Below, in pieces: positions 8,712 through 33,979 of a stretch of DNA of 35,184 bases. Source of the DNA: Chloroflexota bacterium (GTDB taxonomy: Bacteria > Chloroflexota > Limnocylindria > P2-11E > CF-107); assembly GCA_005881435.1 (NCBI GenBank), contig VBHP01000090.1, forward strand, positions 1 through 35,184. The letters run 5' to 3'. A model generated the notes under the pieces. The model made no database searches, was not told the origin of the DNA, and saw only the letters and a program-made list of their open reading frames with translations. Made by a program: the position numbers and the translations under genes. The stretch's first letter is position 1, and each line of letters starts with the position of its first letter.

Positions 8712-8798
8712 ACGCGGCACTCGGTATGCGACTACGGATTTGCGGCGGATATAGCTCGGACGCTCGGGCGGGCATCCGTGATGACATTAGGAGGGGAT
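8712..8798. promoter_or_regulatory. Leader of the ABC importer operon
   Basis: 87 bases between the isomerase and the binding-protein gene. It holds the strong site AGGAGGGG just before ATG 8799, an AT-richer patch GGATATAG at 8747-8754, and a dispersed inverted pair ACGGAT (8734-8739) / ATCCGT (8774-8779). A promoter here would let the importer be expressed separately from the upstream glycosidases. This is suggestive only. Confidence 0.3.
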
Positions 8799-12120: not shown

Positions 12121-13190
12121 CCAGGACCCGCGCGGGCATCGTCGGTGCGGGTCAGGTCTCGCCGTACTACCTGTCCTACCTCGCGAGGAGCGACGACGTC
12201 GAGCTTGCCGCGATCGCCGACCGCGACCTCGCACGCGCGCGCGAGCGGGCCCAGGAGTATGGGATCGCGCGCGTGGTCACCGTCGACGAGCTCGTCGCCG
12301 ACGACGCGATCGACTGCGTGCTGAACCTCACGCCGGCGCAGGCCCATGCCGAGCTGACCGGCCGCGCGCTGGACGCGGGCAAGCACGTGTGGAGCGAGAA
12401 GCCGCCCGCGGTCACGCTGCCCGAAGGACGCGAGCTGGCCGCGCGTGCCGCACGCAACGGCCTGCTGCTGTCGTGCGCGCCGGACACGTTCCTCGGCGCG
12501 TCGTTCCAGACGGCGCGGCGCCTCGTCGACGAGGGCGCGATCGGCGCGGTGGTGGGCGCCTCGTGCTCGTTCGTGACGCCGGGCAGCGAGCTGTGGCACC
12601 ACAATCCCGAGATCCTGTTCGGCCCCGGCGCGGGTCCGATCTACGACGAGGGCGTGTACTTCCTGACGGCGCTGGTCGCGCTCCTCGGTCCGATCAGCGC
12701 GGTCCAGGCCCAGGCCGCCACTATCAGAAAGGAGCGGACGATCGCGACCGGCCCGCGAGCGGGCGAACGTTTCGACTCGGAGATGCCGACGCACTACGTC
12801 GCGACGCTCGCCTTCGCCGGCGGCGCGCTGGCGACGATGACCATGAGCTTCGAGGTCCGCACCACGACGCAGCCGCCGCTCGAGCTGTATGGGACGACCG
12901 GGTCGCTGCGTCTGCCGTTCCCCGGCTTCTACGACGGTCCGCTGCGCCTCGGCCGCGTGCACGACACGCCGTGGGAGGAGATCGCCGCGGAGGGACCGTT
13001 CCTCGGCCGCGTCCGCGGTCCGGGCCTCGAGGACCTGGCGCGCGCGATCGGAGAACGGCGCGAGCCGCGCTGCTCGGCCGCTCTCGCCCTGCACGTGCTC
13101 GAAACCATGGAGCTGCTCCATCGCTCGAGCGACTCGGGTCGACGGGAGCGTCTGACGACGACGGTGCGCCGACCGGAGCCGATGCGCTAA
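12117..13190 (+). CDS. Gfo/Idh/MocA family oxidoreductase with apparent ATA start
   Basis: About 357 aa NAD(P)-dependent sugar or polyol dehydrogenase. The Rossmann fold begins almost at once, RAGIVGAGQVSPYYLSYLA, then VELAAIADRD, CVLNLTPAQAHAEL, GKHVWSEKPPAVT (EKP, catalytic Lys region) and GPIYDEGVYFLTALVALLG (catalytic helix). The C-terminal beta-sheet domain follows. There is no in-frame ATG, GTG or TTG near the beginning. The first downstream GTG, near 12273, would delete the dinucleotide-binding motif, and upstream starts lie inside the permease. The only sensible initiation point is ATA at 12117, overlapping the permease TAG as ATAG. The function is probably oxidation of an imported sugar. 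Its stop overlaps that of the response regulator on the other strand. Confidence 0.85.
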   Translation: MARTRAGIVGAGQVSPYYLSYLARSDDVELAAIADRDLARARERAQEYGIARVVTVDELVADDAIDCVLNLTPAQAHAELTGRALDAGKHVWSEKPPAVTLPEGRELAARAARNGLLLSCAPDTFLGASFQTARRLVDEGAIGAVVGASCSFVTPGSELWHHNPEILFGPGAGPIYDEGVYFLTALVALLGPISAVQAQAATIRKERTIATGPRAGERFDSEMPTHYVATLAFAGGALATMTMSFEVRTTTQPPLELYGTTGSLRLPFPGFYDGPLRLGRVHDTPWEEIAAEGPFLGRVRGPGLEDLARAIGERREPRCSAALALHVLETMELLHRSSDSGRRERLTTTVRRPEPMR

Positions 13191-13834
13191 GCATCGAGGC
13201 CGTTGCGGAAGGCGTACGCGACGGCTTGGGTGCGGTCGCGAAGTCCGAGCTTGTCGAAGATGTTGTGCAGGTGCCGTTTCACGGTCGCCTCGCTGATGAA
13301 GAGCTCGCGACCGATCTCGGCGTTGTTCTGACCGCGCGCGGCGAGGCGAAGCACCTCGAGCTCTCGTGCGGTGAGCACGTTCGCGACACGACGCGGCCGC
13401 CGCCGACCTTCCTCGACCGCAGCTGCGAGCCGTCCCTGTACGCGGGGATCGAAGGCCGCGTCTCCGCCGCCGACCGCGGCGATGGCGCGCGCGACCTCGG
13501 TCACGTTCGCATCCTTCGTCAGGTAGCCCCGCGCTCCCGCCTCGATGGCGCTGAAGACGTGCTCGTCATCCTCGTACGCGGTCAACGCGATCACCCGCGC
13601 GCCCGGACACGCCGCCCGAAGCCGGCGCGTCGCTTCGACGCCGCCGATACCGGGCATCACCAGATCCATGGCGACGACATCCGGCTGAAGCCGCGCGGCA
13701 ACCTGCACCGCCTCTTCGCCGCTGGCGGCGACGCCGACGACGTCGACGTCGGCGAGCGAGGACAGCAGCGCCGCGAACGCATCACGGACCAGGCGCTGAT
13801 CGTCGACGACAAGGACGCGCATGCGCGCGGTCAC
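13187..13834 (-). CDS. NarL/LuxR-type response regulator
   Basis: 215 aa transcription factor. The receiver domain starts MRVLVVDDQRLVRDAF, the phosphoacceptor is D57 in VVAMDLVMPGIGG, and ALTAY and GYLTKDA carry the conserved Thr and Lys. The C-terminal LuxR HTH is ANVLTARELEVLRLAARGQNNAEIGRELF, then SEATVKRHLHNIFDKLGLRDRTQAV. GTG at 13834 overlaps the kinase stop (GTGA), while ATG at 13822 is an alternative start. It pairs with the kinase immediately upstream. Likely targets include the divergent secreted genes at 15114-16314, by context. The gene overlaps the dehydrogenase stop by two bases. Confidence 0.93.
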   Translation of the reverse strand: MTARMRVLVVDDQRLVRDAFAALLSSLADVDVVGVAASGEEAVQVAARLQPDVVAMDLVMPGIGGVEATRRLRAACPGARVIALTAYEDDEHVFSAIEAGARGYLTKDANVTEVARAIAAVGGGDAAFDPRVQGRLAAAVEEGRRRPRRVANVLTARELEVLRLAARGQNNAEIGRELFISEATVKRHLHNIFDKLGLRDRTQAVAYAFRNGLDA

Positions 13835-14967
13835 CGCGTCGGGAGCGTGAGACGCACAGTGAAGCCGTCACCGGTGGCGTTCGTGTCGAGGTCGCCTCCG
13901 AGCAGGCTCGCGCGCTCGCGCATTCCCTCCAGTCCGTGGCCATTCGAATCGCGGCGCTCGCGCTCGAGCGGCCGACCGTGGTTTTCGACGAGGAGCTCGA
14001 CTTCACCGGGCGTGAAACGCAGGTCGACGTCGACGCGTCGCGAGATCGTGTGTCTGCGCACGTTGGTCAGCGCTTCTTGTGCCACGCGATAGATCGCAGC
14101 CTGTGTCTCCGACGGCAGCGCCGCGGAGCCTTCCGCCACGCTCAGCACGTACGGCGTGCCGGTCTGCCGCTCGAAGTCGTGCAGCAGCCGCGGCAGCAGC
14201 GCGAGGGCGGGTGTGGATTCTCCGCGCAGCGTCGCGACGGCATCGCCGACTTCGCTCAGTCCCTGGCGAGCCAGGCGCTGCGCGTCCTCGATCAGCGCGG
14301 TCTGCTGCAGATCTGAGCTGGAGCCGCTGCGCGCACGTTCCAGCTGTAAAACGAGCGCCGACAGCGTGTCCGCGAGGATGTCGTGGATTTCGCGCGCAAT
14401 GCGCGCACGCTCCTGCAGCGCTGCGCTTCGCTCACGCTCGGAGCGGATCGATTCAACGAGCACGAGCAGCTGCTCGGCCTGAGCCTTGGCCTGCTGCGCG
14501 AACCGCACGTACCGGCCGAGCAGAAAGGCGAGGATCCAGAACGCCGCGATGAAGAGGGCATGCACAGCCGGGACGGCTGCGCCAAGCGACGCGATCAGCG
14601 CGACGCTCGCGACGGCGGCGACGAGCACGGCGGTAGCGACGGCCGGGCGGCGCGGCAGGGTCAACCCCAGCGCGAGGATGACCGCCGTGATGCCCGCACT
14701 GCCCGACAGGAAGTGTCCGAGCGCGATGAGTCCGATGGAGCTCGCCGCGACCGCGACGCCGGCCCACCAGGCAAAGCGGAATGTCGCGACGAGCCAGCCC
14801 ACCGCGAGCACCGCGGTGCAGATGGCAACCGCCGCCAGACGCGACGGATCCGGACTCTCGAGCTCGCGGCCGGCGATCACCGCGAACGCGGTGAGCAGCG
14901 CAACGACGCTGAACCCGCGCCAACGCGCGCCGGTGATCACATTCACCGTTGTTGTGCGTGCCTGCAT
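13831..14967 (-). CDS. Membrane sensor histidine kinase, NarL-partner (HisKA_3) type
   Basis: About 378 aa. Several hydrophobic helices in the first ~150 residues (FSVVALLTAFAVIAG, LAAVAICTAVLAVGWLV, VHALFIAAFWILAFLLG) form a compact membrane sensor with no large external loop. A coiled linker is followed by the dimerisation and phosphotransfer helix ARIAREIHDILADTLSALVL, where H is the phosphoacceptor. The ATPase domain carries VAQEALTNVRRH (N box) and GHGLEGMRERA (G box). ATG at 14967 was preferred to GTG at 15027, which has no ribosome site and adds an unlikely leader. It is coupled to the response regulator. The stimulus is unknown; a cell-envelope or membrane signal is plausible from the architecture. 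Confidence 0.9.
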   Translation of the reverse strand: MQARTTTVNVITGARWRGFSVVALLTAFAVIAGRELESPDPSRLAAVAICTAVLAVGWLVATFRFAWWAGVAVAASSIGLIALGHFLSGSAGITAVILALGLTLPRRPAVATAVLVAAVASVALIASLGAAVPAVHALFIAAFWILAFLLGRYVRFAQQAKAQAEQLLVLVESIRSERERSAALQERARIAREIHDILADTLSALVLQLERARSGSSSDLQQTALIEDAQRLARQGLSEVGDAVATLRGESTPALALLPRLLHDFERQTGTPYVLSVAEGSAALPSETQAAIYRVAQEALTNVRRHTISRRVDVDLRFTPGEVELLVENHGRPLERERRDSNGHGLEGMRERASLLGGDLDTNATGDGFTVRLTLPTR

Positions 14968-15113
14968 TTCGTGGACCGCTCCAGTGCGCGTGGAGTTGTA
15001 GGTCCGGGCGTCGAGGAATGCAACCACCGGACGATGCCGCCGGGCGATCGGAGCAATACGTTCACGCGCGGCGAACCAGCGCGCGATGCGACAGGCGTCG
15101 CGAAGGAGGGTTC
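14968..15113. promoter_or_regulatory. Divergent region between histidine kinase and secreted protein gene
   Basis: About 146 bases likely hold promoters for both directions. AAGGAGG, four bases before ATG 15114, is a strong ribosome site for the secreted protein. I could not identify convincing operator repeats or promoter hexamers. Confidence 0.3.
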
Positions 15114-16326: not shown

Positions 16327-18906
16327 CTAGCGACGCCGCTTACGGGGTGGCGCCGGCGTGTTCGCCGGCTGCGGCACAGAACGGACCGACACGCCGCAGA
16401 TCGGCAGGCCCAGGCGATAGTTCTTGTACGCCTGCGCCCACTTCATCACGTCCGGCAGCCACTCCGGGCGTTCGGCCGCGGCGTTCACGCAGCCGCGGCC
16501 GAAGAAGGCCGAATCGTCCGTCTTCGGCTCGGTGCCGGCGATGTACTTCTCGACGGTGCGCCATGAGGACGGACAGTTCGGTCCCGGCAGTAGACCCGAG
16601 CCCACGCCGCCGGTCAGGCCCGGACGCACGCAGACCGTCTTCTCGATGATGCCGTCAGGACGCGCATACCAGGTCTCGGGAAGCTGCAGCTGGCCGATGG
16701 CCTCCTTCATGAACTCGCGCCACAGCACACCCGGGCCCATCGCCGAGGAGATGCCGTACATCTGCGAGTTGTCGGAGTTGCCCATCCATACCGCCGTCAG
16801 CAGCTGCGGCACGTACCCCACGGCCAGCACGTCGCGCAGGTTGTCGGTCGTGCCGGTCTTGAGCGCCGCGGTCCGGCCGATGTTGGTCCAGGAGCCGAAG
16901 ATCGAGCTCGTGTTCGGATCGGTGATGTCCTTCAGCATGTCCGTCATCAGCCACGACAGCTGCGGCGAGATCGCCTGTGTCCCCTCGGGCTGCGACCAGT
17001 CGCGCACCACGTTGCCGTCCTTGTCCTCGATGCGTGAGATCAGCGTCGGCTCGATACGTACGCCGCCATCGGCGACGACCTGATACGCGCCGGCGAGCTC
17101 GCGCAGCGTCATTCCGCCAGCGCCGATGCCGAAGGGCAGACCGAGCTGAGACGCGTCCCACTCCCGATCGACGCCGAGCTGGCGCGCGGTCTGGACGATC
17201 TCGTCGACGCCGACCAGCGACGTGATCTTGACCGCGGGAACGTTCAGCGATTCGCGGATCGCCTGGCGGATCGTGATCGGACCGTTCTCCGGACCGGCGC
17301 CGGATCCGCTCGGCGAGGCATTCTGCGGGCGGTACTGCGGCTGACCAGCGGCGGCGAAGTTCGTCGACACGTCCCACAGCACGGTCGACGGCGTGTAGCC
17401 CTTGCGCAGCGCGGTCAGATAGGTGAAGAGCTTGAACGTCGATCCGACCTGCCGCTCGCCGAGGCCGGCGACGTCGAACTGACCGCGGACGCGCGGATCC
17501 TGATCGTCGTACTTCACGCTGCCGACGTAGGCGAGGATGTAGCCGTTCCGCGGATCCATCGCGATCAGCGCGGCGTTGTGCACGTTCGCCGACGCGAGCG
17601 CCGCGACGCGATCCTTGACCTGTCGCTCGGCGATGGCCTGCAGCTGCGGATCGATCGTCGTGTACACGCGATAGCCCCCGACGTACGCCGCGCGCTCGCT
17701 GCCGAAGACTTCGGCCAGCTGATCGCGGACGCGGAACACGACGTGTGGCAGCGACAGCGGGGTCTCGGCCGCGTGCACCAGGATCGGTTCGTCAGCGGCC
17801 CGTTCGGCCTCGTCGCGACTGACGAATCCTGCGGCCAACATCGCCGCCAGGACTTCGCTCCGCCGGGCCCGCGCTCCGTCGGGGTTCGTCACCGGGTCGT
17901 AGATCGACGGCCGCTGCGGCAAGCCCGCGAGCAGCGCGGCCTGACCGAGCGTCAGCTGCCGCAGGTCGGTCACGTCGAAATAGGTCTTCGCCGCGGTCTT
18001 CACGCCGTACGAGCGATTCCCGTAATAGACCTGATCCAGGTACAGCTCCAGGATCCGCGCCTTGGGGTAGCGCATCGTGACGCGGATGGCGATGAGCGCC
18101 TCGTTCAGCTTGCGCGCGAGGGTCTGATCGTCGCCGGTGAGACGCGCTTTGACGAGCTGCTGCGTGATCGTCGATCCGCCCTGCGCGACGTAGCCCTCGC
18201 GCCAGTTCGTGACCAACGCACGGAAGATGCCGCCCGGATCGACGCCGAAGTTGGTCCAGAAGCTGCGGTCCTCGATCGCGATCGTCGCCTGCTGCAGGAT
18301 CAGCGGGACGTCAGCGAGCGCGGCGTGCTCGCGGTGCTCCTCTTCGAAGGTGTAGAGCAGCTTGCCATCGCGGTCGTACACGAAGGTCGAATACGGAACC
18401 TCCGCGGTCTCCAGCTGCGACGGGTCGGGCAGCGCGGCCCACACCGCGGTGGCGCCGAGCCATGCGCCGCCGAACGCGATCGCGGCGAGGACCATCCACA
18501 GGCGCGGTCGTGGGATGCGGCGCGGCCGCCGCTCTTGTCCGACGCGCCAGGCGGTCGTCGTCAGCGCGACGGCGCGATCGCGGACGCGGCGAGACCAGCG
18601 CGCCAGCTCCGCGTCGGCTCGGCGCGCCGCCGGGATCGCGCTGCGCTCGCCCCAGCTGTCGATCGCGCGCGACGCCGCGTCGTAGCGGCGCGGCACCTCG
18701 GCGCGGATAGAGATCGCGGCGCGCAGCGCGGCCGTGGCGGCGCGAGGCGCGTCTCGGCGCAGCGACGATGCCGCCGCGACCAGCGCCGTCGCGATCAGCC
18801 ACAGCAGGGCGGCGATGCGCTCGGCCGTCGCGAGCAATCGCGGCAGCGCCACGTCGAGGAGGAAGGTTCGGGCGGCCCGGCGCCCGGTCGGCAGCAGAAC
18901 GCCCAC
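16327..18906 (-). CDS. Class A penicillin-binding protein (GT51 plus transpeptidase)
   Basis: 859 aa bifunctional peptidoglycan synthase, inner membrane with the bulk outside. The glycosyltransferase domain has IEDRSFWTNFGVDPGGIFRA with predicted catalytic E212, QGGSTITQQLVK near 242-253 and LELYLDQVYYGN. The transpeptidase domain has S489 in STFK, SLN at 553-555 and KTGTT at 683-687, the complete active-site triad of motifs. An unusual N-terminus of about 135 residues carries a hydrophobic helix near 31-48 and an Ala/Arg-rich stretch before the main anchor WMVLAAIAFGGAWLGATAVW. The GTG start at 18906 lacks a good ribosome site, so the true start could be internal. The C-terminus is Pro/Arg-rich. 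It converges with the secreted gene pair, 12 bases apart. Confidence 0.93.
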   Translation of the reverse strand: MGVLLPTGRRAARTFLLDVALPRLLATAERIAALLWLIATALVAAASSLRRDAPRAATAALRAAISIRAEVPRRYDAASRAIDSWGERSAIPAARRADAELARWSRRVRDRAVALTTTAWRVGQERRPRRIPRPRLWMVLAAIAFGGAWLGATAVWAALPDPSQLETAEVPYSTFVYDRDGKLLYTFEEEHREHAALADVPLILQQATIAIEDRSFWTNFGVDPGGIFRALVTNWREGYVAQGGSTITQQLVKARLTGDDQTLARKLNEALIAIRVTMRYPKARILELYLDQVYYGNRSYGVKTAAKTYFDVTDLRQLTLGQAALLAGLPQRPSIYDPVTNPDGARARRSEVLAAMLAAGFVSRDEAERAADEPILVHAAETPLSLPHVVFRVRDQLAEVFGSERAAYVGGYRVYTTIDPQLQAIAERQVKDRVAALASANVHNAALIAMDPRNGYILAYVGSVKYDDQDPRVRGQFDVAGLGERQVGSTFKLFTYLTALRKGYTPSTVLWDVSTNFAAAGQPQYRPQNASPSGSGAGPENGPITIRQAIRESLNVPAVKITSLVGVDEIVQTARQLGVDREWDASQLGLPFGIGAGGMTLRELAGAYQVVADGGVRIEPTLISRIEDKDGNVVRDWSQPEGTQAISPQLSWLMTDMLKDITDPNTSSIFGSWTNIGRTAALKTGTTDNLRDVLAVGYVPQLLTAVWMGNSDNSQMYGISSAMGPGVLWREFMKEAIGQLQLPETWYARPDGIIEKTVCVRPGLTGGVGSGLLPGPNCPSSWRTVEKYIAGTEPKTDDSAFFGRGCVNAAAERPEWLPDVMKWAQAYKNYRLGLPICGVSVRSVPQPANTPAPPRKRRR

Positions 18907-22167: not shown

Positions 22168-24024
22168 CTAATTTACGTCCAGCAGCGCCTCCGCGACTTG
22201 GCCGAAGCGCCGTCCATCGATCGTGACGTCGACAGCAATCCGGGCGCGCCGCACGTTTCCGCCGCGTGGCACGATCGTGGCGCGCACCCGCCGCGTGCCG
22301 CCTGGCGGCAGAGGGACGTCCGCGAGCACCGACGCCGAGCGCCAGCCGCGCGGCAGCACCAGCCGAAGGCGCGCCACGGCCGGCCGCCGGAAGGGGTTCC
22401 GGACCTCGATGCCGACGTCGTGCGGCTCGCCGGCGGTGGCCCTGGAGCGGTAGGGACGGATCCACGCCAGCGCCCCTTCGGCGTCGAGATCGACCTCGTC
22501 TAGCGGCAGCAGCTCGCGATGCAGCCGCGCCAGTTCCCTACCCTTCACCCGAAGCTCCTCCAGGAAGGCGTCGTCCACCCACACCGGGGGCGTGTGCCCG
22601 AAGAGCATCAGGTCGGGATGGAGGCGCGCGTACAGCGCCGACGAATCCACGTAGTCGTCGAGGCGGAACCGATTGCGGTAGACGTAGTTGGAGAGCCGCG
22701 GCGGGCCCCCCTGCTGGTCGCCGACGACCAGCACGCGCTTGCCGTCGACGGCGAAGCTGATCGCGACGGCGTGCAGCGTGTGTCCCGGCAGCTGATACGG
22801 CGTCAGCTCGTACTCCTCACACCGCACCGGCTGCTCCAGCGCCAGGGTGCGGTCGACCCGGATCGGGTCGTACCACATGCAGGGCAGGTCGTAGCGCTCG
22901 GGGTCGCCGAGCGGCTCGGCCACGATCGGCGCGGACCAGATCTCGGTTCCCTCGGTCTCGCGCAGCAGGTTGAATCCGGCGACGTGGTCGTCGTGATAGT
23001 GCGTCGGGATGGCCACGTCGATCTCGGTCACGCCGAAATCGCGTTTCAGCGCCGGAACGGTGTAGAGCCACGGCCGGCGCGAGGCGCGGTCCGAGCCGTC
23101 GGCTGCGCCGAAGGCGAAGTCGTAGCCGAAGTCGAAGAGGAGTGCCTTGCCGCTCTCGGACAGCAGCACGTGGGAGTTCGCGACAGAGGTCCGGTTCGCC
23201 AGCAGATGCGGGGTGAGGGCCTCGTACGGGCGTGCGCGGAGTTCCAGGAGGCGCGGGTTGTGCTCGCGGAGCGTGATCAGCGCCTGCAGCCGGGCGACGG
23301 TCAGGTCGATGGCCGCGATCGGATCGGCGATCGGCTCGCCGTGCGAGGGATAGACCGCGGCGGGCCCGCGGTCGCGGAGGTCCAGCAGCGACAGCACGCT
23401 CCCCGCGAGCCCCTCACCACCGTTGTAGGTCCACTGCGTCGCGGCGAGCGACCACACTTTGCCGGCCGCGTAGATGAGATCGCCGGTGAAGGCGACGCGA
23501 TTGCCGTCGATCTCCGCCAGCAGAGACACCGAACCCGTCGTGTGTCCGGGCGTCGGGAGCACGAAGAAGCGATACGCGCCCGAACGCAGCTCGCGGTACT
23601 CGGGCAGCACGCCGGCGACCTCGACCGACTCCAGCAGGGAGAAACGATCTTCGCGGACGTTGTAGTTGGCCGCGATCTCGCGCGCCTGCCAGTGCGCCTC
23701 GACCTCGCCGAAGAGATCGCTCTCGACTGGCGGCACCCACACCCGCGCTCCGATGGCGTTGGCCCTGGCCAGACCCTGACCCTGGTCGCGATGGTGGTGC
23801 GTCATCACCACGTCGCCGACCTTCGCGATGCCGAGCGACGGAAGCTCCGGGAGCACGTCTCCGTCGCCGAAATCGACCAGCGTCGCGCGCGTTCCGCTTT
23901 TGACGACGTAGACGTTGCAGGTGTCGGCGAACGACCACAGGTTGGTGGAGATGCGACGAAGGCGGCTCGAGACTGGCTGTGCGGCTGGCGCACGGACAAT
24001 GCTGGCTCTGGCCGCTCGACTCAC
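22168..24024 (-). CDS. Tandem metallo-beta-lactamase-fold protein with C-terminal beta domain
   Basis: 618 aa with two MBL folds. Fold 1 (about 25-250) has THHHRDQ at 75-81, where the last His of HxHxDH is Gln, plus PTPGH at 157-161, TGDLIY at 180-185 and SHGEP at 227-231. Fold 2 (about 280-485) has the canonical THYHDDHVAG at 341-350, LPGH at 412-415, GDQQ at 435-438 and FGHTPP at 475-480. Residues ~520-618 form an Ig-like domain (HDVGIEVRNPFRRPAVARL, then LPPGGTRRVRATIVP) resembling NEW3/NPCBM-associated domains of glycosidases. GTG 24024 is preceded immediately by an in-frame TGA, so no earlier start is possible. The reaction is unknown; a sugar lactone or ester substrate is a guess from context. 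Confidence 0.85.
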   Translation of the reverse strand: MSRAARASIVRAPAAQPVSSRLRRISTNLWSFADTCNVYVVKSGTRATLVDFGDGDVLPELPSLGIAKVGDVVMTHHHRDQGQGLARANAIGARVWVPPVESDLFGEVEAHWQAREIAANYNVREDRFSLLESVEVAGVLPEYRELRSGAYRFFVLPTPGHTTGSVSLLAEIDGNRVAFTGDLIYAAGKVWSLAATQWTYNGGEGLAGSVLSLLDLRDRGPAAVYPSHGEPIADPIAAIDLTVARLQALITLREHNPRLLELRARPYEALTPHLLANRTSVANSHVLLSESGKALLFDFGYDFAFGAADGSDRASRRPWLYTVPALKRDFGVTEIDVAIPTHYHDDHVAGFNLLRETEGTEIWSAPIVAEPLGDPERYDLPCMWYDPIRVDRTLALEQPVRCEEYELTPYQLPGHTLHAVAISFAVDGKRVLVVGDQQGGPPRLSNYVYRNRFRLDDYVDSSALYARLHPDLMLFGHTPPVWVDDAFLEELRVKGRELARLHRELLPLDEVDLDAEGALAWIRPYRSRATAGEPHDVGIEVRNPFRRPAVARLRLVLPRGWRSASVLADVPLPPGGTRRVRATIVPRGGNVRRARIAVDVTIDGRRFGQVAEALLDVN

Positions 24025-24074: not shown

Positions 24075-26102
24075 CTATGTCAGCTCGACGACCGTGCCGT
24101 TCTTGCGACCGAGGCGCAGGTGCAGCTCGTTGCCCGCCGGCGTGCTGGTGGCGCCGGTGCGAAGGTCTCGCGCCTCGATCGCCGCGTCTGCGAGCAAGAC
24201 CGGCTCGTCGAGATCGGCGTCAGTGGTGTTGACCGCGATGAGGAAACGCTTGTCGCCGCGTCGGAACAGCGCGGTCGACACGCCCGGTGTCCGCGCTCGG
24301 CTCGCGATCGGCACGCCGAGCCACTGCTGCACCGCGACCACGAGCTGCGGCGTCGGCGACACGCCGAGCACGACCACGCTGCCCTTGCCTCGTGTCTCGC
24401 GGTACCCGACGACGTGCCGCTCGCCCTTGGTCAGAGTGGCGTGCAGGTGCAGGCCCTCCTGTTGCTGCGGCCAGGGCTCGCACTCCGCGTGCAGCGCCGC
24501 GCCCGGCACGTCGGCGTACGAGGCGAAGGGCGTCGCCGGCAGCGGCAGGCGCCGTTCGCCGAGCAGGACCACGACGCGGCGGAGGTTGCCGGAGCCGAGG
24601 ACGGCGTCCGGCGGCCGGAGCCCAAGCGGATTCGCCGCGCGAAGCTGCTCGTCGAAGCGAGGCAGCCGCTGCACGAAAACAAGCTGTCCGCCGGCCTCGA
24701 CATACGCCGCGAGGCGCTCCGCCGCCGCCCGCGACAGCCACTCGCCACCGGCGTAGAACAGCAGCGGCTTGGCGATCGCGCCGGTCTCCACGTCGCAGCA
24801 CTCGTGGTCGATGTCGGCCTGATGCAGCGCCGTCAGGACCGGGTGGTCCGGATCCAGTTTCGCGCCCTGCTCGACAACGTCGACGGTGACGGCCGTGTCG
24901 GTGATCTTCTCCAGGGACGGCACGTCGATCTCGCGGAAAAGCCGGATGATCTCGCCGAACGCCGGCGCGAGGTCCGGCCGGGCGCGGGCGACGCCGCTGA
25001 TCGGCGTGCCGTACCAGTTGTCGCGTTCGACGAGCATGTACCAGTTCCATCCGGCGATGCCGGCGACGAGCGCCGACAGCGACGACAGCGTGTAGTGGTT
25101 CGCGGTGTGAACGCCGGTCCAGTAATGCCACCCGTGCCAGATGCCGGCGCCGAATTCGGGGATGTAGGGCAGCTTCGAGTAGGTGCGGGTGAAGCGAAGA
25201 CGATCGAGGAAGCGTCGATGCTCTTCGGCGCCGGCGCGGAACTCCTGACTCGGATACAGGTCCGGACCGGCGAGATCGCTCGCCGTCTCCAGTGCGCGCC
25301 AGTCCTGCGCGCCGAAGCCGGAGTAGGCGTTGGCGTAGATCGGGACGTCGACGCCGAGCTGCCGCAGCGTCCTCACCGTCCACGACACGATGTCGGTGGC
25401 GTAGTGCTGCCGGAAACGAATGCCGTCGAGATAGCGCACGCGTTCGCCGCGATCGACGGAGACGGGCTCGAGCACCGCGCCGCGCGCGTCGGCGAAATCG
25501 CGATGTGAGGTACCCCAGGCGCCATTGAGCGCTTCGATCGAGCGGTAACGCTCGCGAAGAAAATCCTGGAACGGCCCGGGCTTGTCGAAGAGACCGAGCT
25601 CTCTGGCGTAGGCCTCGGTCCAGGCGTCGGGCTCGTTGTCGGCTTGGACCATGACGATCGGTCCGCCGTTCGTCGCCAGGAACGGTCGCGCCGCTCGCAG
25701 GACCGCCTCGAGCCAGCCGCGCGCGGCTTCTCGGAACTCGCTCGACGTGCGGTGATATTTCACCACGCGCTCGGGCACGCCGGAGTTGCGCCACTCGCTG
25801 TAGATGTACGGACCCGGTCGCAGGATGATCGCGAGCCGCATGTCCTTCACCAGCTGCAGAAACCCGACGAGGTCGCGCGAGGGATCACTGTCCCCCTTCA
25901 GGTCGAAGCGACCGGCTGCGAGCTCGTGATGGTCCCAGCACGCGTATGACGCGATAATCTCGAGGCCGAGATCCTTCGCGCGCGCCAGTGCGTCGCGCCA
26001 GTAGAGCTTCGGCGTACGCCAGTAATGGATCTCGCCGGAGAGCAGCGCGTACGAGCGCTCCCCCACCCAGATGCGGCGATCACGGATCTGAACGTCGGCT
26101 AT
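24075..26102 (-). CDS. GH35-type beta-galactosidase-like enzyme with apparent ATA start
   Basis: About 675 aa. It matches GH35: LLSGEIHYWR at the barrel start, ILRPGPYIYSEWRNSGVPE, VQADNEPDAW with predicted acid/base Glu (about E157) and YIPEFGAGIW with predicted nucleophile Glu (about E316). A C-terminal beta domain follows. There is no signal peptide. The first in-frame GTG is at 26066. However, the 12 codons above it read ADVQIRDRRIWVGERSY, the expected first beta strand of GH35 proteins, and extend exactly to an ATA overlapping the stop of the upstream GH2 gene (ATAG). No ATG, GTG or TTG lies in that stretch. It probably cleaves beta-galactose or a related terminal residue. If GTG 26066 is used, the first strand is lost. 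Confidence 0.88.
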   Translation of the reverse strand: MADVQIRDRRIWVGERSYALLSGEIHYWRTPKLYWRDALARAKDLGLEIIASYACWDHHELAAGRFDLKGDSDPSRDLVGFLQLVKDMRLAIILRPGPYIYSEWRNSGVPERVVKYHRTSSEFREAARGWLEAVLRAARPFLATNGGPIVMVQADNEPDAWTEAYARELGLFDKPGPFQDFLRERYRSIEALNGAWGTSHRDFADARGAVLEPVSVDRGERVRYLDGIRFRQHYATDIVSWTVRTLRQLGVDVPIYANAYSGFGAQDWRALETASDLAGPDLYPSQEFRAGAEEHRRFLDRLRFTRTYSKLPYIPEFGAGIWHGWHYWTGVHTANHYTLSSLSALVAGIAGWNWYMLVERDNWYGTPISGVARARPDLAPAFGEIIRLFREIDVPSLEKITDTAVTVDVVEQGAKLDPDHPVLTALHQADIDHECCDVETGAIAKPLLFYAGGEWLSRAAAERLAAYVEAGGQLVFVQRLPRFDEQLRAANPLGLRPPDAVLGSGNLRRVVVLLGERRLPLPATPFASYADVPGAALHAECEPWPQQQEGLHLHATLTKGERHVVGYRETRGKGSVVVLGVSPTPQLVVAVQQWLGVPIASRARTPGVSTALFRRGDKRFLIAVNTTDADLDEPVLLADAAIEARDLRTGATSTPAGNELHLRLGRKNGTVVELT

Positions 26103-28609
26103 GGCCGGACGAGCCTACCAGCGAGATCGACGACGACATCGGGCGCGTTCCAAACTCTCGCGCCGAGACGCCGCTCGCGCTCCGGAACATCCCACCACTC
26201 GACGCGGCAGTTCATCTGCTCGCCCGGCAACAGCGAGAGATAGTTCGGTTCGACAAAGAGGAAGCCCGCCGCCCGCGCCGGACGTGCGTCGTACAGCTCG
26301 ATGCCGATGGCCGCGGTTCTGCCGCGATTGCTGACGAGCGCGTCCTCGCCGCTGACACGCACCGCGATCGAGGTCAGCGGTAGCCGCAGCAGCGGCGCCA
26401 GGTCGGTGGTTGGGCTGAAGATGTAGCGCGACGGCGCGAGCAGCAGATCGCCAACGTGCAGCTCGAGGTCGAGAAAGAAGACCTCGTCGATCGCCAACGG
26501 ATGCTCGATCTCCAGCAACCGCGTCGCGGCCGGCGCGGGGATGTCGATCGTGTCGCCGCCGCGGGCGTGGACCGTGCCGAGGGCATCGGTGAGACGCCAC
26601 TCCAGTCGCGCCGCCGTGAGATCGGTCCCAGCGTTGCTGGCCCACGCCACCGCGGTGAAACGGTCGCGACCGCCCCACGCTAGCGTCGGAAAGGACGCCG
26701 ACAGCAGCATCGGCGCGTACGCATGCTGCACCGCGTGGTAGGCCGGCTTCGGTCTTCCGAAATAGTCCACCGCCGAGGTGCACCAGCCGTTGGGATAGGG
26801 CTCGTCGAATTGCCATGGGATCGAGCCGGAGTTGCGCCACTGGCGCCGCCGGTTCGACTCGACCGCATATGCGAGCCCTTGCGCCTGCAAGTACTGGCTG
26901 CAACGACGAAGGGTCTCGAGATCGTCGATCGGCCCGAACAGTGTCCGGAGCAGCGGTTCGTTGATCCACCAGTCGCCGCGATGCGCCCACATCGGGTTCT
27001 GCCGCGTCACCGGCCAACGCTGCTCCCGCGGCAGGGTCGCCTCGATCGCCTCGCGGTTGGTCATTCCTTCGGCGCCGAACTCGGAGTGGAACAGCGAGGT
27101 GCCGGCGTCGTACAGCGCGCTCTGCCCCTCGAGGCCCTGGTGCTCCCAGGGCCCGTGGACGTCGTGCAGCGCGTCTGGATGTGCCGTGATATTCGCCGCC
27201 GAATTCGCGAACGTCGGCCCCGAGGGCGACGAGGGGAACCAGGCCCGATCCGGATCGAGCGACCGGACGACGTCGCGTAACGCCGCCAGCACGGGCGAGC
27301 GATCTTCGGTCAGCGGCGAATCGTTGTCCGCGAGCTCGTTCCCACCACACCACGCCACGAGCGAGGGGTGGTTCCGCTTGCGCGGCACGATCACCTCGGC
27401 TTCGCGGCGCAGCATCTCGACGAACGCGGGGTCGCGCGAGGGCTGGCTCGAGAGACCGGAGGAGGACTGGACGAATTCCTGCCAGACCATGATGCCGGCG
27501 CGGTCGCAGGCCTCGTAGAACGCCTCGCGCTCGATGAGGCCGCCGCCCCAGACGCGAAACAGGTTCACGTGCGCGCGGCGCGCCAGCTCGATCAGTCGCG
27601 CCAGCTGCTGCGGTCGTTCGGGGCCGTAGAGCGCGTCCAGCGGCACCCAGTTCCAGCCGTTCACGTACACGCGCCGTCGATTCACCACGAACACATATGG
27701 ACGGGCCGAACGGTCAGGCGTGTCATTCGCGGCGAGCTCCACCTGGCGAATCCCGAACGTGACGCGACGCTCGTCGGAACCCCCGGCTCGAACGACGCAC
27801 TGGTAGAGCGGTTGCGCGCCGTGGCCATTCGGCCACCACAGCTCGGGTCGATCGATACGCACTCGCGCATCGGCGCCGGCGCCGGAGGTCACGACGACGC
27901 CCTCTCGTTGGATCTCGAGCGCGACGCCGATGTCGGGTCCGTCGAGGGTCGTGCGCACCTCGATGTCCGCGCAGGAGTGGTCCTCCGTGACGATCGGTCG
28001 GACCCACACGTCGGCGACGCGCGTCGGTCCGGTGAATTCGAGCCGCGCATCGTCCCACAACCCCTGATGCACGAGGCGCGGGCAGAAATCCCAGCCGTAA
28101 TTCATGCGAGCCTTGTGCGTGCGGACCCGCTCCGTCCGACCGACCTGTGGCTCCTCTTCCGGCGCCGGCGCGATCGCGACGACAAGCACGTTCTCGCGAT
28201 CGAGGCGCAGGCGGTCCGTCACGTCGAAGATCGCCGGCGTGAACATGCCGCGGTGCGTGCCGATCACTTCGCCGTTGAGAAAGACCTCGGCCTCGTAGTC
28301 GATGCCCTCGAACACCAGCGTCGCGCGGCGTCTCGCCAGTGATGCGTCGACGCGAAAGGTGCGCCGATAGACCCAGGTGCGTTGGGGCACCCACTCGACC
28401 TGCAGCGAATTGCGGTCGTAGTACGGATCGGCGACGGCGCCCGCGCGCGCGAGATCATCGATGACGCTGCCCGGCACTCGCGCCGCATGCCAGATGATGT
28501 TCGCGCTCGGCTCGTCGTCCGTCAGCTTTTTCCAGCGCCATTCGTCCCCGACGAAACCCGCGATGCGCCAGTCCTCGCCGGCGAGCGGCAGCACCGCGCG
28601 CCAGTTCAT
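26099..28609 (-). CDS. GH2 beta-mannosidase-like enzyme
   Basis: 836 aa, cytoplasmic (no signal peptide). Domains in order are sugar-binding beta sandwich (DDLARAGAVADPYYDRNSLQ, WVYRRTFRVD, LNGEVIGTHRGMFTP), immunoglobulin-like domain, TIM barrel, and C-terminal beta domains. The barrel shows FRVWGGGLIEREAFYEACDR, then IMVWQEFVQSSSG, WCGGNELAD with predicted acid/base E425, and SLFHSEFGAEGM with predicted nucleophile E510. The QVEWVPQRTW and WGGG-E-FYEACD patterns favour beta-mannosidase over beta-galactosidase. Its ATG overlaps the MFS stop (ATGA), and its TAG overlaps the ATA of the GH35 gene. With GH35 it could trim beta-linked mannose and galactose from a glycan core. The long upstream open frame over the MFS gene is a shadow. 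Confidence 0.92.
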   Translation of the reverse strand: MNWRAVLPLAGEDWRIAGFVGDEWRWKKLTDDEPSANIIWHAARVPGSVIDDLARAGAVADPYYDRNSLQVEWVPQRTWVYRRTFRVDASLARRRATLVFEGIDYEAEVFLNGEVIGTHRGMFTPAIFDVTDRLRLDRENVLVVAIAPAPEEEPQVGRTERVRTHKARMNYGWDFCPRLVHQGLWDDARLEFTGPTRVADVWVRPIVTEDHSCADIEVRTTLDGPDIGVALEIQREGVVVTSGAGADARVRIDRPELWWPNGHGAQPLYQCVVRAGGSDERRVTFGIRQVELAANDTPDRSARPYVFVVNRRRVYVNGWNWVPLDALYGPERPQQLARLIELARRAHVNLFRVWGGGLIEREAFYEACDRAGIMVWQEFVQSSSGLSSQPSRDPAFVEMLRREAEVIVPRKRNHPSLVAWCGGNELADNDSPLTEDRSPVLAALRDVVRSLDPDRAWFPSSPSGPTFANSAANITAHPDALHDVHGPWEHQGLEGQSALYDAGTSLFHSEFGAEGMTNREAIEATLPREQRWPVTRQNPMWAHRGDWWINEPLLRTLFGPIDDLETLRRCSQYLQAQGLAYAVESNRRRQWRNSGSIPWQFDEPYPNGWCTSAVDYFGRPKPAYHAVQHAYAPMLLSASFPTLAWGGRDRFTAVAWASNAGTDLTAARLEWRLTDALGTVHARGGDTIDIPAPAATRLLEIEHPLAIDEVFFLDLELHVGDLLLAPSRYIFSPTTDLAPLLRLPLTSIAVRVSGEDALVSNRGRTAAIGIELYDARPARAAGFLFVEPNYLSLLPGEQMNCRVEWWDVPERERRLGARVWNAPDVVVDLAGRLVRP

Positions 28610-29823
28610 GCGATGGCGGGCTCGGCGCGTCGGAGCGCGACCCGCCACACCGTCGCCAGCGATGCCGCCAGCAGGACCGCGCTGAAGAGGAATGCCGCGC
28701 CCGGCAGCAGGTACGCGCGCAAATCCGCTACGGCCAGCGCGAATGTCTGCGTGAAGAGCAGCGGGGCGATGACGGCGGCAACGGCATGCAGGCTGCCGAA
28801 TGTGCCCTGCAGCCGGCCCTGCTCCGTCGCGGCTACGTGGCGTGTCGCCAATCCCATGAGCGACGGCGAGACCAGCCCGAAGAAGGACCACACCGGGATC
28901 CCGACCAGGAACAGCGATGTGTTCGGCGCGAGAGCGAAGATCAGCTGCGCCGAGATGCCGACCACGAGACCGACGACCAGCGCGCCGCGCTCACCGAGGC
29001 GTGCGACCGCGCGCCCGACCACCAGGCCCTGAACGACCATCGACGACACGCCGACCAGGGCGAGCGCGAGACCGACCGCGCGTTCATCCCAGGCGAAGCG
29101 GTACTGGGTGTAGAGGACGAAGGTCGCCGGCAGAGAGTCGTGGGCGACGTACGCGAAGAAGGCCGCGAGCGCGAGCGTCGACAGGCCCGGATGCGCACGC
29201 ACGAAGTGGAGTGCACCGATCGGATTCGCCGTCTGGAACTGGAACGCGGCCCGCCGCTCGCGCGGCAGCGACTCCGGAAGGATGAAGAAGCCGTAGGCGA
29301 AGTTCGCGAGGCTCAGCGCCGCGGCGGCCCAGAACGGCGCCCGCAGATCGATCGCTCCCAGTGCGCCACCGACAGCGGGCCCGACGATGAAGCCGACGCC
29401 GAATGCGACACCGAGCATGGCGAATCGTCCGGCGCGCTTCTCCGGCGGCGTCACGTCCGCGATGTAGGCGCCGGCCGCGGAGAAGCTCGATGAGGTGATG
29501 CCGGAGGCGAGTCGACCGATGAACAGCCACGCCAGGTTCGGCGCGAGCGCCATGACGATGTAATCGAGCCCCAGACCGAGATTCGACAGCAGGATCACCG
29601 GTCGACGGCCGAAGCGGTCCGAGAGCGCACCGAGCACCGGCTGGAAGAAGAACTGCATCACCGCCCAGGCCGCGGCGAACACGCCGAAGGCGGAGGCTCC
29701 GGCCGCGGCGTCGCCGCCCTCGAGTCGAACGATCAGCCCGGGGAAGACAGGCACGACGAGTCCGAACGCGAGCATGTCCAGGAGGACCGTGATGAAGACG
29801 AACGCGAAGGCCGCGCGGCTCAT
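28606..29823 (-). CDS. MFS transporter, TetA-like
   Basis: 405 aa, 12 predicted helices. VFITVLLDMLAFGLVVPVFP is the first helix, with the D...G...P pattern of TetA-like antiporters. GALSDRFGRRPVILLSN is motif A after helix 2. IADVTPPEKRAGRFAMLGVAFGVGFIVGP is the motif C-like helix region. ATG 29823 was preferred to 29880, which reaches into the upstream gene. Located seven bases after the MBL gene and overlapping GH2 (ATGA), it is in a sugar-degradation operon, so it may carry a sugar or sugar acid rather than a drug. The TetA likeness is to fold, not proof of substrate. Confidence 0.9.
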   Translation of the reverse strand: MSRAAFAFVFITVLLDMLAFGLVVPVFPGLIVRLEGGDAAAGASAFGVFAAAWAVMQFFFQPVLGALSDRFGRRPVILLSNLGLGLDYIVMALAPNLAWLFIGRLASGITSSSFSAAGAYIADVTPPEKRAGRFAMLGVAFGVGFIVGPAVGGALGAIDLRAPFWAAAALSLANFAYGFFILPESLPRERRAAFQFQTANPIGALHFVRAHPGLSTLALAAFFAYVAHDSLPATFVLYTQYRFAWDERAVGLALALVGVSSMVVQGLVVGRAVARLGERGALVVGLVVGISAQLIFALAPNTSLFLVGIPVWSFFGLVSPSLMGLATRHVAATEQGRLQGTFGSLHAVAAVIAPLLFTQTFALAVADLRAYLLPGAAFLFSAVLLAASLATVWRVALRRAEPAIA

Positions 29824-29830
29824 GCCGAGG

Positions 29831-30562
29831 TCAGGTGCGCAAGTAGAACGGCTTGAACCACGGATTGAAGTACACACCAAACTGCGCGCGCGCGTCGCGA
29901 AGCTTCGCGGTCGCGTCGAGGATCAGCATCGGACGCGAATGTCCGATCGCCAGAGCTGTCGGATCGAGCTCGATGAGCCGATCCAGCGAACGCCGCCAGT
30001 CCTTTGCATCGGAGCCGATGCGCTCGTGGAATCCGCCCCACACCGTATCGCCGGTGATGAGCACGCGCATGTCATCGAGGTCCAGCTGGAACGACGACGA
30101 ACCGGGCGTGTGCCCGGGCGTGTGCACCACACGCAGCTCCATGTCGCCGGCCGGCACGCGAAGGCCGTCGCGCAGCTCGCGGTCGACGCGCAGTTTCGGA
30201 AAAGCGCGGTCATAGAGGAACGCGGAGGTGCGCTCCGGATCGGCCGACTCCACGGCCTCGCGGTCGCCGGCGTGCAGCCAGAGCTCGGCGGCGCTCTCCT
30301 CGCGGAGACGCGCCATTCCCGAGAGATGGTCGAAGTGCCCGTGCGTGACGAGCACGCGGCGGATGTCGTGCGGGGTCACGCCGACGGACAGCAGGTTGCG
30401 CCGCAGCGCGTCGTACCCGTCGAGCGAGCCGCAATCGATGAGCACCGGCTCGCGGCCGGCGATGAGGTACGCATTCGCATCGAAGGGATGGCTGAGGCGA
30501 TCGCCGGACACCGCGTACAGCGGACCCGCGAGCCGGACCGCTCGTTTGCGCGGCACGCGCAC
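29831..30562 (-). CDS. Metallo-beta-lactamase-fold hydrolase
   Basis: About 243 aa single-domain MBL enzyme. It shows VLVTHGHFDHLSGMARL (HxHxDH, full metal-site motif), VVHTPGHTPGSSSF, ITGDTVWGG and AIGHSRP, so both metal sites look intact. Family members include glyoxalase II, lactonases and other hydrolases; the substrate is not predictable. Upstream of the first reasonable GTGs (30562, 30556) there are only non-canonical codons in frame, so the start is uncertain. The frame remains open far upstream over the kinase gene, but that is a shadow. First gene of the leftward MBL-MFS-GH2-GH35 run. Confidence 0.85.
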   Translation of the reverse strand: MRVPRKRAVRLAGPLYAVSGDRLSHPFDANAYLIAGREPVLIDCGSLDGYDALRRNLLSVGVTPHDIRRVLVTHGHFDHLSGMARLREESAAELWLHAGDREAVESADPERTSAFLYDRAFPKLRVDRELRDGLRVPAGDMELRVVHTPGHTPGSSSFQLDLDDMRVLITGDTVWGGFHERIGSDAKDWRRSLDRLIELDPTALAIGHSRPMLILDATAKLRDARAQFGVYFNPWFKPFYLRT

Positions 30563-30772
30563 GACCTTGGCGATCCGGGAGATGAGCCGTGAGTGAGTGA
30601 TCGTGTTGTCTACAGCACCATGGTCCCGCGCGGTGAGAAGCGATGGAAGATTTTCGTTGCGGGCACGTCTTTGTAACGGGACGCTTCCGCCGAGAGGTGC
30701 GCCGGACGGGCATCGGCACGTTCGTTCGCTCTCCGCTCTAACCTGCCGGGCCGGCGTTGGAGAATGCCTCAG
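30563..30772. promoter_or_regulatory. Divergent intergenic region between MBL and FGGY kinase genes
   Basis: About 200 bases, the longest non-coding gap here. An AT-richer patch (GGAAGATTTTCGTTGCGGGC then ACGTCTTTGTAACGGG, 30645-30680) could hold promoters for one or both directions. A short GTGA triple repeat lies near 30590. GGAG ten bases before ATG 30773 serves the kinase. No clear operator palindrome or riboswitch fold was seen. Confidence 0.35.
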
Positions 30773-32224
30773 ATGAAGCAGGCCTTCCTCGGGATCGATT
30801 GCGGGACGCAATCGACGAAGGCCGTGCTGCGCGATCCGCGCAGCGGCGCGGTCCTGGCCGCGGGCCGCGCTCCCCACCGGATCATCGAAGGCGAGGACGG
30901 CACGCGCGAGCAGGATCCGGCCTGGTGGATCGAGGCGTTGCGGATCGCGGTGCGTGACGCCACGCGCGACGGATCCATCGAGGTGGTGGGCGTTGGCGTC
31001 TCGGGACAGCAGCACGGGCTCGTCTGCCTCGACTCGAGTGGTCGGCCGGTGCGAGCGGCGAAGCTGTGGAACGACACCACCACCGCCCGGGAGTGTGACG
31101 AGCTGACGAGGAAGCTCGGCGGAACGGCTCGCGCGCTGGCGCTGACCGGAAACGTCTTCCTCCCCGGATACACCGCTCCCAAGATCGCGTGGCTGCGAGC
31201 GCACGAGCCCGCGGCTTACGCCCGGACCGCCCGGATGTGCCTGCCACACGATTTCCTGAACCTGTGGCTCACCGGAGAGTTCGCCACCGAGCCCGGCGAT
31301 GCTTCCGGCACGGCGTACTTCGACGTGCGCACGCGTCGGTACCGGGACGAAGTGCTGGCCGCGATCGATGACCGCCGCGACTGGGTGGCCACGCTCCCGC
31401 GCCTGGTGCCGTCGCTCGACGTGATCGGCACGCTGCGGCCGGAGGCGGCGGATGCGCTCGGCCTCGCGGCGGGAATTGCAGTCAGCGCCGGCGGCGGCGA
31501 CAACATGTGCGCCGCGATCGGCTGCGACGTCGTGGTCGAAGGGCCCGTCGCGGTAAGTCTCGGGACCTCCGGGACGGCGTTCGCGTATCGCGCCGAGCCG
31601 GCGGTGGATCCGCTCGGCGAAGCGGCCGCGTTCTGCGATTCGACCGGCGGCTGGCTGCCGCTGGCGTGCACGTTGAACTGCACCAGCGCGACCGAGTGGG
31701 CGCGCGATCTCTTCGGGTTGTCGCACGGCGAGGTCGACGCGGCCATCGCCGATGGCGGCGGCGCGGACGAGCCGGCGTTCCTGCCGTATCTCTCGGGCGA
31801 GCGGACGCCGAACCTGCCGCGCGGCGCGGGCGTGTTCGTGGGACTGCGGGCGAATCACGGCCGCGCGTCGATCGTGCGCGCGGTCGTCGAGGGCGTCACC
31901 TTCGGTCTGGCGTATGCGCTCGAAGCGCTGCGGCGGACCGGCGTCACGCCGACGGAGGTGACCCTCGTCGGCGGCGGTGCGTCGTCGGACGCGTGGGCTC
32001 AGCTGTGCGCCGACCTGTTCGACCTGCCGGTGGTGCGGCCGGCGATCGATGAGGCAGCGGCGTCCGGCGCCGCGCGTCAGGCGCAGTGGGTCGTCGAGGG
32101 CGCTCGGCCTTCGCTCGCGCCCGCCGCGTCGCGGCGCTTCGAGCCACGGCCGCGTCCGGAGCTGCACGCCGCCGCCGGGCGGATGGCCGCGCTTCGCGAG
32201 CTGGCCGAGGCGAACCGGCTGTGA
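30773..32224 (+). CDS. xylB: FGGY-family carbohydrate kinase (xylulokinase-like)
   Basis: 483 aa. The N-terminal phosphate loop is FLGIDCGTQSTKAVLRD. GVGVSGQQHGLVCLD and AKLWNDTTTARECDEL match xylulokinase. GYTAPKIAWLRAHEP and AVSAGGGDNMCAAIGC follow, where the GGGDN Asp is the predicted catalytic base. VSLGTSGT is the second nucleotide motif. LSGERTPNLPRGAGVFVGL and VTLVGGGASSDAWAQL complete the fold. ATG 30773 has GGAG ten bases upstream; ATG 30764 lies too close to that site. The gene is coupled to the phosphomannose isomerase-like gene. The likely substrate is D-xylulose, but other ketoses are possible, and no xylose isomerase is in the window. Confidence 0.9.
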   Translation: MKQAFLGIDCGTQSTKAVLRDPRSGAVLAAGRAPHRIIEGEDGTREQDPAWWIEALRIAVRDATRDGSIEVVGVGVSGQQHGLVCLDSSGRPVRAAKLWNDTTTARECDELTRKLGGTARALALTGNVFLPGYTAPKIAWLRAHEPAAYARTARMCLPHDFLNLWLTGEFATEPGDASGTAYFDVRTRRYRDEVLAAIDDRRDWVATLPRLVPSLDVIGTLRPEAADALGLAAGIAVSAGGGDNMCAAIGCDVVVEGPVAVSLGTSGTAFAYRAEPAVDPLGEAAAFCDSTGGWLPLACTLNCTSATEWARDLFGLSHGEVDAAIADGGGADEPAFLPYLSGERTPNLPRGAGVFVGLRANHGRASIVRAVVEGVTFGLAYALEALRRTGVTPTEVTLVGGGASSDAWAQLCADLFDLPVVRPAIDEAAASGAARQAQWVVEGARPSLAPAASRRFEPRPRPELHAAAGRMAALRELAEANRL

Positions 32225-33361: not shown

Positions 33362-33979
33362 ATGCCACGCGCCCTCATCCTCCGCGTCATCTTCGCCGCG
33401 CCGCTTCTTCTCGCCGCCTGCGGCACCACCGGCGCGCCCGGCGGCCAGCCTTCGGCGGTCGCCGCGACCCCGACCGCGCGACCCACCGGCACGGCGTCGC
33501 CCGCGGCGACTTCCTCGCCGGCGCCGAGCGCGGCCGCCTGCGACACCACGGTCTCCGGGAAGGGCACCGTCGGCCAGGCGCAGATCGTCGCCGTCCGTGT
33601 CGCATCGCATGGCGATTTCGATCGCATCGTCTTCGAGTTCGATGGACGCGGCGGCCCCGCCGGCGTCCCCGATTACGAGATCAAGTCCGCCCCGCGTCCG
33701 ATTTACAAGGATCCCAGCGGTCTGCCGCTGACGGTCTCCGGCGAGCCCGTCATCGGCATCACGCTTCGCGGCGGCACGCGCATGGGCTTCGACGGTGGCG
33801 CCGTGTACAAAGGCACGACCGACTTCAAGACCGCTTATCCGACGCTGACCGAGCTCATCGAGGGCGGCGACTTCGAAGCCATCGCCACCTGGTATGCCGG
33901 ACTCTCGGGCAGCTCCTGCGTCAGCGCTGCGGTCCTCGCGAACCCCGCACGCCTGGTCATCGACGTCGCGCGCCGCTAA
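33362..33979 (+). CDS. AMIN-like domain lipoprotein
   Basis: 205 aa, exported and lipid-anchored: MPRALILRVIFAAPLLLAAC ends in the lipobox LLAAC. A low-complexity linker of Ala/Thr/Pro/Ser (PTARPTGTASPAATSSPAPS) spans about residues 35-58. The domain contains IVAVRVASHGDFDRIVFEFDG, YEIKSAPRPIYKDPSG and LVIDVARR, which fit the AMIN-like all-beta domain found in Actinobacteria and Chloroflexota lipoproteins. AMIN domains often bind peptidoglycan or other envelope polymers. AAGGAGG precedes the ATG. Its TAA overlaps the TAG of the converging GH38 gene by two bases. Confidence 0.85.
   Translation: MPRALILRVIFAAPLLLAACGTTGAPGGQPSAVAATPTARPTGTASPAATSSPAPSAAACDTTVSGKGTVGQAQIVAVRVASHGDFDRIVFEFDGRGGPAGVPDYEIKSAPRPIYKDPSGLPLTVSGEPVIGITLRGGTRMGFDGGAVYKGTTDFKTAYPTLTELIEGGDFEAIATWYAGLSGSSCVSAAVLANPARLVIDVARR

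Follow-up and report, generated by a model that had tools for sequence, protein, structure and literature searches.

A tandem MBL-fold protein family with an Ig-like C-terminal domain, linked to GH38-type glycan loci in several bacterial phyla

Genes of the locus

The window, the whole stretch of 35,184 nucleotides analysed from a Chloroflexota bacterium (contig VBHP01000090.1), carries a sugar-uptake operon headed by a GH38-type alpha-mannosidase gene and, about 9 kb or more from this run and on the opposite strand, the gene of a tandem MBL-fold protein. The tandem-MBL gene is accompanied by two co-directional glycosidase genes, and a carbohydrate kinase gene lies further along the contig. 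The genes discussed here are as follows.

3636–6380 (+): GH38-type alpha-mannosidase, at the head of the uptake operon, with an "HTHWDREW" start read from the sequence
6377–8110 (+): GH31-like protein (start approximate) with a weak GH31 match, probable counterpart of the neighbour cluster c4, which has the same weak match
8121–8711 (+): SIS-domain isomerase-like protein (Pfam), clustering with the SIS neighbours of other loci
8778–10238 (+): ABC sugar-binding lipoprotein (neighbour cluster 9, with SBP_bac_1 in its representative)
10271–11182 (+): ABC transporter permease (Pfam)
11179–12120 (+): second ABC transporter permease, a reading frame assigned by sequence
12120–13190 (+): Gfo/Idh/MocA oxidoreductase (Pfam; start approximate)
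22168–24024 (-): tandem-MBL protein, an ORF of 618 aa with a GTG start, identified by its homologues and an AlphaFold2 model
24075–26066 (-): GH35/GH42-type glycosidase (Pfam), upstream of and co-directional with the tandem-MBL gene, and near this gene in other loci too
26099–28891 (-): GH2 glycosidase (Pfam), co-directional, with its true start probably further in; present in 8 listed loci
30764–32224 (+): FGGY-type carbohydrate kinase (neighbour cluster 8)

No obvious signal peptide was seen by eye in the MBL protein or the GH38 enzyme of the window, which suggests a cytoplasmic location for both.

Several other genes were observed in the window. A pair encoding a LuxR-type response regulator and a histidine kinase (13187–15027, -) lies beside the sugar-uptake operon, and a class A penicillin-binding protein gene (16327–18906, -) sits inside the glycan region, with one half of it on either side. 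A second GH38-type protein is represented at 33976–35184 (-) by its C-terminal part, which has a Glyco_hydro38C2 match at E 1.5e-9; the contig end cuts off the rest. Additionally, a 778-aa ORF at 29831–32167 (-) carries an MBL domain at its C-terminus; since its N-terminal part is antisense to the FGGY kinase gene, this ORF is probably a false fusion, the real gene likely encoding a single-domain MBL protein at about 29831–30649. An MFS transporter gene (28606–29880, -) lies directly downstream of this single-domain MBL gene.

Domain architecture and predicted metal sites

A chance ORF at 22168–24024 was ruled out by the presence of full-length homologues across dozens of genera. The Pfam scan of the 618-aa protein detected Lactamase_B (PF00753) in two separate stretches (E 2.6e-26), with a score of 93.2 bits against a gathering threshold of 22.7 that makes it a member of the MBL-fold superfamily; no other Pfam family exceeded its cut-off. 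The AlphaFold2 model, built from a 72-sequence alignment, reached a mean pLDDT of 94.3 and a pTM of 0.91, and comprises two MBL domains (approximately residues 22–255 and 266–506) followed by a beta-sandwich (approximately residues 515–618). Values of pLDDT below 50 were restricted to residues 1–19, and therefore the real start may be slightly downstream of the called GTG. In a profile comparison, fold 1 matched fold 2 with a probability of 99.8 at 23% identity, which fits an internal duplication; the two folds look like such a duplication, and a fusion of two related MBL genes would also be compatible. The first-pass annotation had claimed two full-length MBL folds in one chain, a description borne out by Pfam, the model and the profile comparison alike. 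The domains and the predicted ligand positions, with their conservation among 108 aligned sequences, are listed below.

23260–23961 (-): MBL fold 1, residues 22–255 (Pfam, model, profile comparison)
23782–23799 (-): HHHRDQ motif, residues 76–81, with ligand positions H76, H78 and D80 and with Gln81 replacing the usual His; kept in 105–108 of 108
23542–23544 (-): H161, fold-1 ligand position; 107/108
23479–23481 (-): D182, fold-1 bridging ligand position; 106/108
23341–23343 (-): H228, fold-1 ligand position; 107/108
22507–23229 (-): MBL fold 2, residues 266–506 (Pfam, model)
22984–23001 (-): HYHDDH motif, residues 342–347, a canonical HxHxDH; H342, H344, D346 and H347 in 108/108
22780–22782 (-): H415, fold-2 ligand position; His in 89 and Gln in 19 of 108, the Gln occurring in some distant members
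22717–22719 (-): D436, fold-2 bridging ligand position; 108/108
22594–22596 (-): H477, fold-2 ligand position; 108/108
22171–22482 (-): C-terminal Ig-like beta-sandwich, NPCBM_assoc/NEW3-like, residues 515–618 (weak Pfam match, models, Foldseek)

Metal binding by the window protein is predicted from these positions. Fold 2 presents the complete set of an HxHxDH motif with downstream His, Asp and His (H342, H344, D346, H347, H415, D436, H477), and fold 1 presents the same set apart from Gln81, which stands where the motif would end in His. An altered HHHRDQ motif in one fold and a canonical one in the other had already been recognised in the first-pass annotation, and the conservation check that it had proposed for HHHRDQ gave a clear outcome. 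The positions H76, H78, D80, H161, D182 and H228 are each kept in at least 106 of the 108 sequences and Gln81 in 105; because of this, HHHRDQ is, as judged from the alignment, a conserved family signature and not a decayed motif. A degenerate fold 1 in the window protein was accordingly rejected. In the 60-sequence GH38-linked subfamily, positions conserved at 95% or more numbered 58 of 234 in fold 1, 54 of 255 in fold 2 and 11 of 108 in the tail, so that near-invariant residues are slightly more numerous in fold 1 than in fold 2.

A second ligand table covered 78 sequences. The fold-2 site was present in all of them, as HHDH followed by His or Gln and then Asp and His, with His415 replaced by Gln in 8, and no loss of this site was found among the 78. 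Losses were observed in fold 1 of a few relatives, each with an intact fold 2. Two Deinococcus proteins (L153, 9019–10830, and L158, 9010–10764) carry HHHRDV in place of the signature and have both H161 and D182 replaced, with H228 also lost in L158, while a Chloroflexota protein (L052) lacks several fold-1 ligands, H228 among them. In L090 and L097, the sole fold-1 change is at Gln81. Fold 2 is therefore inferred to be the centre that the family cannot dispense with, and fold 1 a second predicted metal centre that most members retain. The earlier suggestion that fold 1 had lost one metal ligand and become regulatory or structural does not apply to the window protein, in which the first-site histidines (H76, H78, H161) are kept together with D80, D182 and H228 and the usual second-site His is a conserved Gln; it does describe the two Deinococcus proteins and the one Chloroflexota protein.

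The tail gave a weak match to NPCBM_assoc/NEW3 (PF10633), with 18.1 bits against a gathering threshold of 24.4 (E 0.003). This match was consistent in four members of the family (E 0.0009 to 0.02), all below the curated cut-off. When modelled alone, the tail reached a pLDDT of 94.1, and the Foldseek search with the isolated domain returned Ig-like sandwiches that include domains of lacto-N-biosidase, amylopullulanase and sialidase, as well as complement proteins. The description "Ig-like, glycosidase-associated type" is therefore a reasonable one for a fold that is not exclusive to glycosidases, and the first-pass view of an Ig-like domain usually attached to glycosidases was a fair one, with the qualification that unrelated proteins match too.

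Distribution and gene neighbourhoods of the family

Matches at E 1e-20 or better were found in 29 of 400 sampled Chloroflexota genomes, and one relative from the window's own class shares 52% identity. At least 80 loci in named genomes encode relatives at about 48–59% identity, distributed across Bacillota, Chloroflexota, Actinomycetota and one Steroidobacteraceae MAG, and Deinococcus relatives on plasmid records show 45–46%. More distant relatives (about 30–38%) were identified in other Chloroflexota, rhizobia and haloarchaea, those of the last two groups coming from plasmid records at 30–36%. In the tree, the clade of about 50% identity is set apart from the distant members with a support of 0.95. 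A phage origin of the tandem-MBL gene was rejected, as no match was found among phage records. Where annotation was seen, members were labelled just "MBL fold metallo-hydrolase". The tandem-MBL protein represents a real and widespread bacterial family that is apparently unstudied.

For the neighbourhood analysis, genes within 10 kb were called by a simple codon-based script and then clustered, so that the counts are approximate, and many of the loci are cut by contig ends. The counts refer to 80 listed loci in named genomes, corresponding to 49 genus-level units with the window included. A GH38 alpha-mannosidase was present in 51 of the 80 loci and 34 of the 49 units, and rarely on the opposite strand. 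ABC permeases, a ROK kinase, a GH31-like protein, LacI, a SIS isomerase and an FGGY kinase were each observed in 25–42 listed loci. Rarer neighbours include an Asp/Glu racemase-family protein, class II aldolases, GH84, DeoR and a four-carbon acid-sugar kinase; acid-sugar genes occur in about 9–11 listed loci and Gfo/Idh in 11. Most of this recurrent neighbourhood is found as one co-directional run in two annotated Deinococcus plasmids, where the MBL gene is accompanied by GH38, GH2, GH84, GH100-like, class II aldolase, four-carbon acid sugar kinase and Gfo/Idh genes.

Two further neighbour clusters are without a confident Pfam family: c4 (622 aa; L115, 11794–13662), weakly GH31-like and present in 31 listed loci, and c14 (632 aa; L128, 17180–19078), weakly GH127-like and present in 12. 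Both are possible unrecognised glycosidases.

The distant members have other neighbours, including binding proteins, CoA-transferase-like proteins (assigned by sequence), carnitine-like, fatty-acid or sugar-acid genes and a relative of mandelate racemase. The GH38 link is therefore a property of the clade of about 50% identity and not of the whole family, and a single universal operon for the entire family was rejected. The combination had initially been regarded as unusual for a glycan locus. The glycan context stands; the combination is unusual in being unstudied but is not rare, recurring as a neighbourhood over several phyla.

Proposed function and comparison with known families

We propose that the window protein is a putative cytoplasmic hydrolase with two metal centres, from an uncharacterised family, whose substrate would arise in GH38-type glycan catabolism; this reading we regard as reasonably probable. 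In the scheme that we envisage, an ancestral MBL fold would have been duplicated within one gene, with the Ig-like domain gained or kept as the C-terminal part. In the catabolic operons of the window protein's subfamily, the ABC transporter would import an oligosaccharide, the GH38 alpha-mannosidase and its partner glycosidases would break it down inside the cell, and the products would feed the kinases, isomerase and aldolases. Fold 2, with its canonical two-metal site, would be the constant catalytic centre. Fold 1 would provide a second metal site, with Gln replacing one ligand, that is probably functional in the window protein and dispensable in some lineages.

As for the specific chemistry, our leading guess is that the substrate is a sugar or sugar acid in lactone or ester form, which the enzyme would hydrolyse; this is a tentative view drawn entirely from gene context. 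The sugar-lactone or ester hydrolase hinted at in the first-pass annotation is plausible on that basis. Neighbouring acid-sugar kinase and aldolase genes point to aldonate-type intermediates and thereby fit a lactonase, and an aldonate or lactone intermediate is likely in the loci with an acid-sugar kinase, aldolases and Gfo/Idh. The number of loci carrying such genes implies that the operon does not always require a lactone step, and the unrelated contexts of the distant members mean that the reaction may be more general. The distance of the window's MBL gene from the GH38 run, and its opposite strand, also count against the proposed role. It is also conceivable, if unlikely, that both MBL sites are active and perform two successive or different steps on the GH38-type product, e.g., lactone opening and cleavage of an ester or another substituent. 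The Ig-like domain would then assist in holding the glycan, and the protein would be an as yet unrecognised two-centre enzyme of a pathway common to several phyla.

Three other readings of the protein were considered. A non-catalytic fold 1 of regulatory or structural role, with fold 2 as the sole enzyme, would agree with the loss of fold-1 ligands in Deinococcus and L052 and with the absence of any such loss in fold 2, and it has a precedent in yeast Trz1, where one of two tandem MBL domains is dead (PMC7785958). However, the six ligand positions and the Gln are kept in the window protein and in at least 105 of 108 relatives, and conservation is slightly higher in fold 1 than in fold 2; a metal-free role is disfavoured because such a domain is not expected to keep its ligand positions, and we hold this reading to be improbable. 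The protein might instead be a phosphodiesterase or phosphoesterase on phosphorylated glycans, such as mannosyl-phosphate diesters, freeing chains for GH38. Phosphodiester cleavage is common among MBL-fold enzymes, and the constant GH38 partner and a weak PhnP profile match speak for this reading. The PhnP match (25.8 bits) is far under its cut-off of 272, however, and no recurring phosphate-specific neighbours were found among the clustered genes of the loci, which leaves it with a rather slim chance.

A generic housekeeping or detoxifying esterase or thioesterase, glyoxalase II-like and merely riding in sugar operons, would account for the distant members in non-sugar contexts and for the THHHxD motif of fold 1, which is like that of glyoxalase II. 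Against this, the gloB score of 45 bits is well under the cut-off of 200.8 (TIGR03413), and the clade of about 50% identity stands separately with its GH38 neighbourhood in most genus-level units; such an esterase seems to us quite unlikely. The hydrolase with two metal centres thus remains our preferred reading.

Many genera across Bacillota, Actinomycetota, Chloroflexota and Deinococcota have members of the family under generic annotation, and the steady partnership with GH38, SIS and ROK proteins suggests that current pathway maps lack a step in the breakdown of a common soil or host glycan. Furthermore, members that have lost the fold-1 site beside members with two sites offer a test case for the keeping or losing of a duplicated catalytic domain.

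The domain-architecture search proposed in the first-pass annotation returned the two Lactamase_B stretches, and none of the named MBL families compared reached its cut-off. Besides PhnP and gloB, the candidates rejected by score were subclass B3 metallo-beta-lactamase (43.4 vs an NCBIfam equivalog cut-off of 240 bits), the HARLDQ-motif MBL-fold protein (18 vs 350 bits, NF000405), the N-acyl homoserine lactonase AidB (28.8 vs 360 bits, NCBIfam), 4-pyridoxolactonase (30.3 vs 325 bits, NCBIfam) and RNase Z (18.4 vs 315 bits, NF002558). As for a solved tandem relative, a single-sequence search of PDB sequences gave no match at E 0.001, and a profile search gave matches to single folds only. Similarly, none of the best 50 Foldseek structure matches covered both folds (query TM-score of at most 0.31, one fold each), and tRNase Z was not among them. 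A search of open-licence papers for tandem MBL proteins in glycan operons yielded no description of this family. A characterised family with the same architecture, which the first-pass annotation had named as a refutation of its reading, was thus not found in these profile, PDB, Foldseek and literature searches.

Among known systems, the best fold matches to a single MBL domain were B3 metallo-beta-lactamases and HARLDQ proteins (Cronobacter, PDB 6dn4/6dr8). HARLDQ proteins carry a Gln at the second-site His position (6dr8 title, mutant Q121H), as does fold 1 of the window protein. They are also altered at positions 118 and 254 according to the PDB title, whereas fold 1 keeps H78 and H228, and the B3 and HARLDQ proteins are single-domain, in contrast to the tandem window protein. 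Glyoxalase II, human LACTB2 and TTHA1429-type hydrolases share the MBL fold, a THHHxD-type motif and fold matches, but have one MBL domain without duplication or Ig-like tail. The resemblance to the NPCBM_assoc/NEW3 domain of alpha-galactosidases and other glycosidases lies in the C-terminal sandwich, by weak profile and fold match; the tail differs in falling below the curated cut-off and in being joined to MBL folds instead of a glycosidase. Finally, long-form tRNase Z (ELAC2, yeast Trz1) likewise has two MBL domains per chain (PMC7785958, PMC11649783). In tandem proteins of this type, such as yeast Trz1, one domain is dead and its metal site lost (PMC7785958), a pattern rejected for the window protein, both of whose folds keep their metal motifs and predicted sites.
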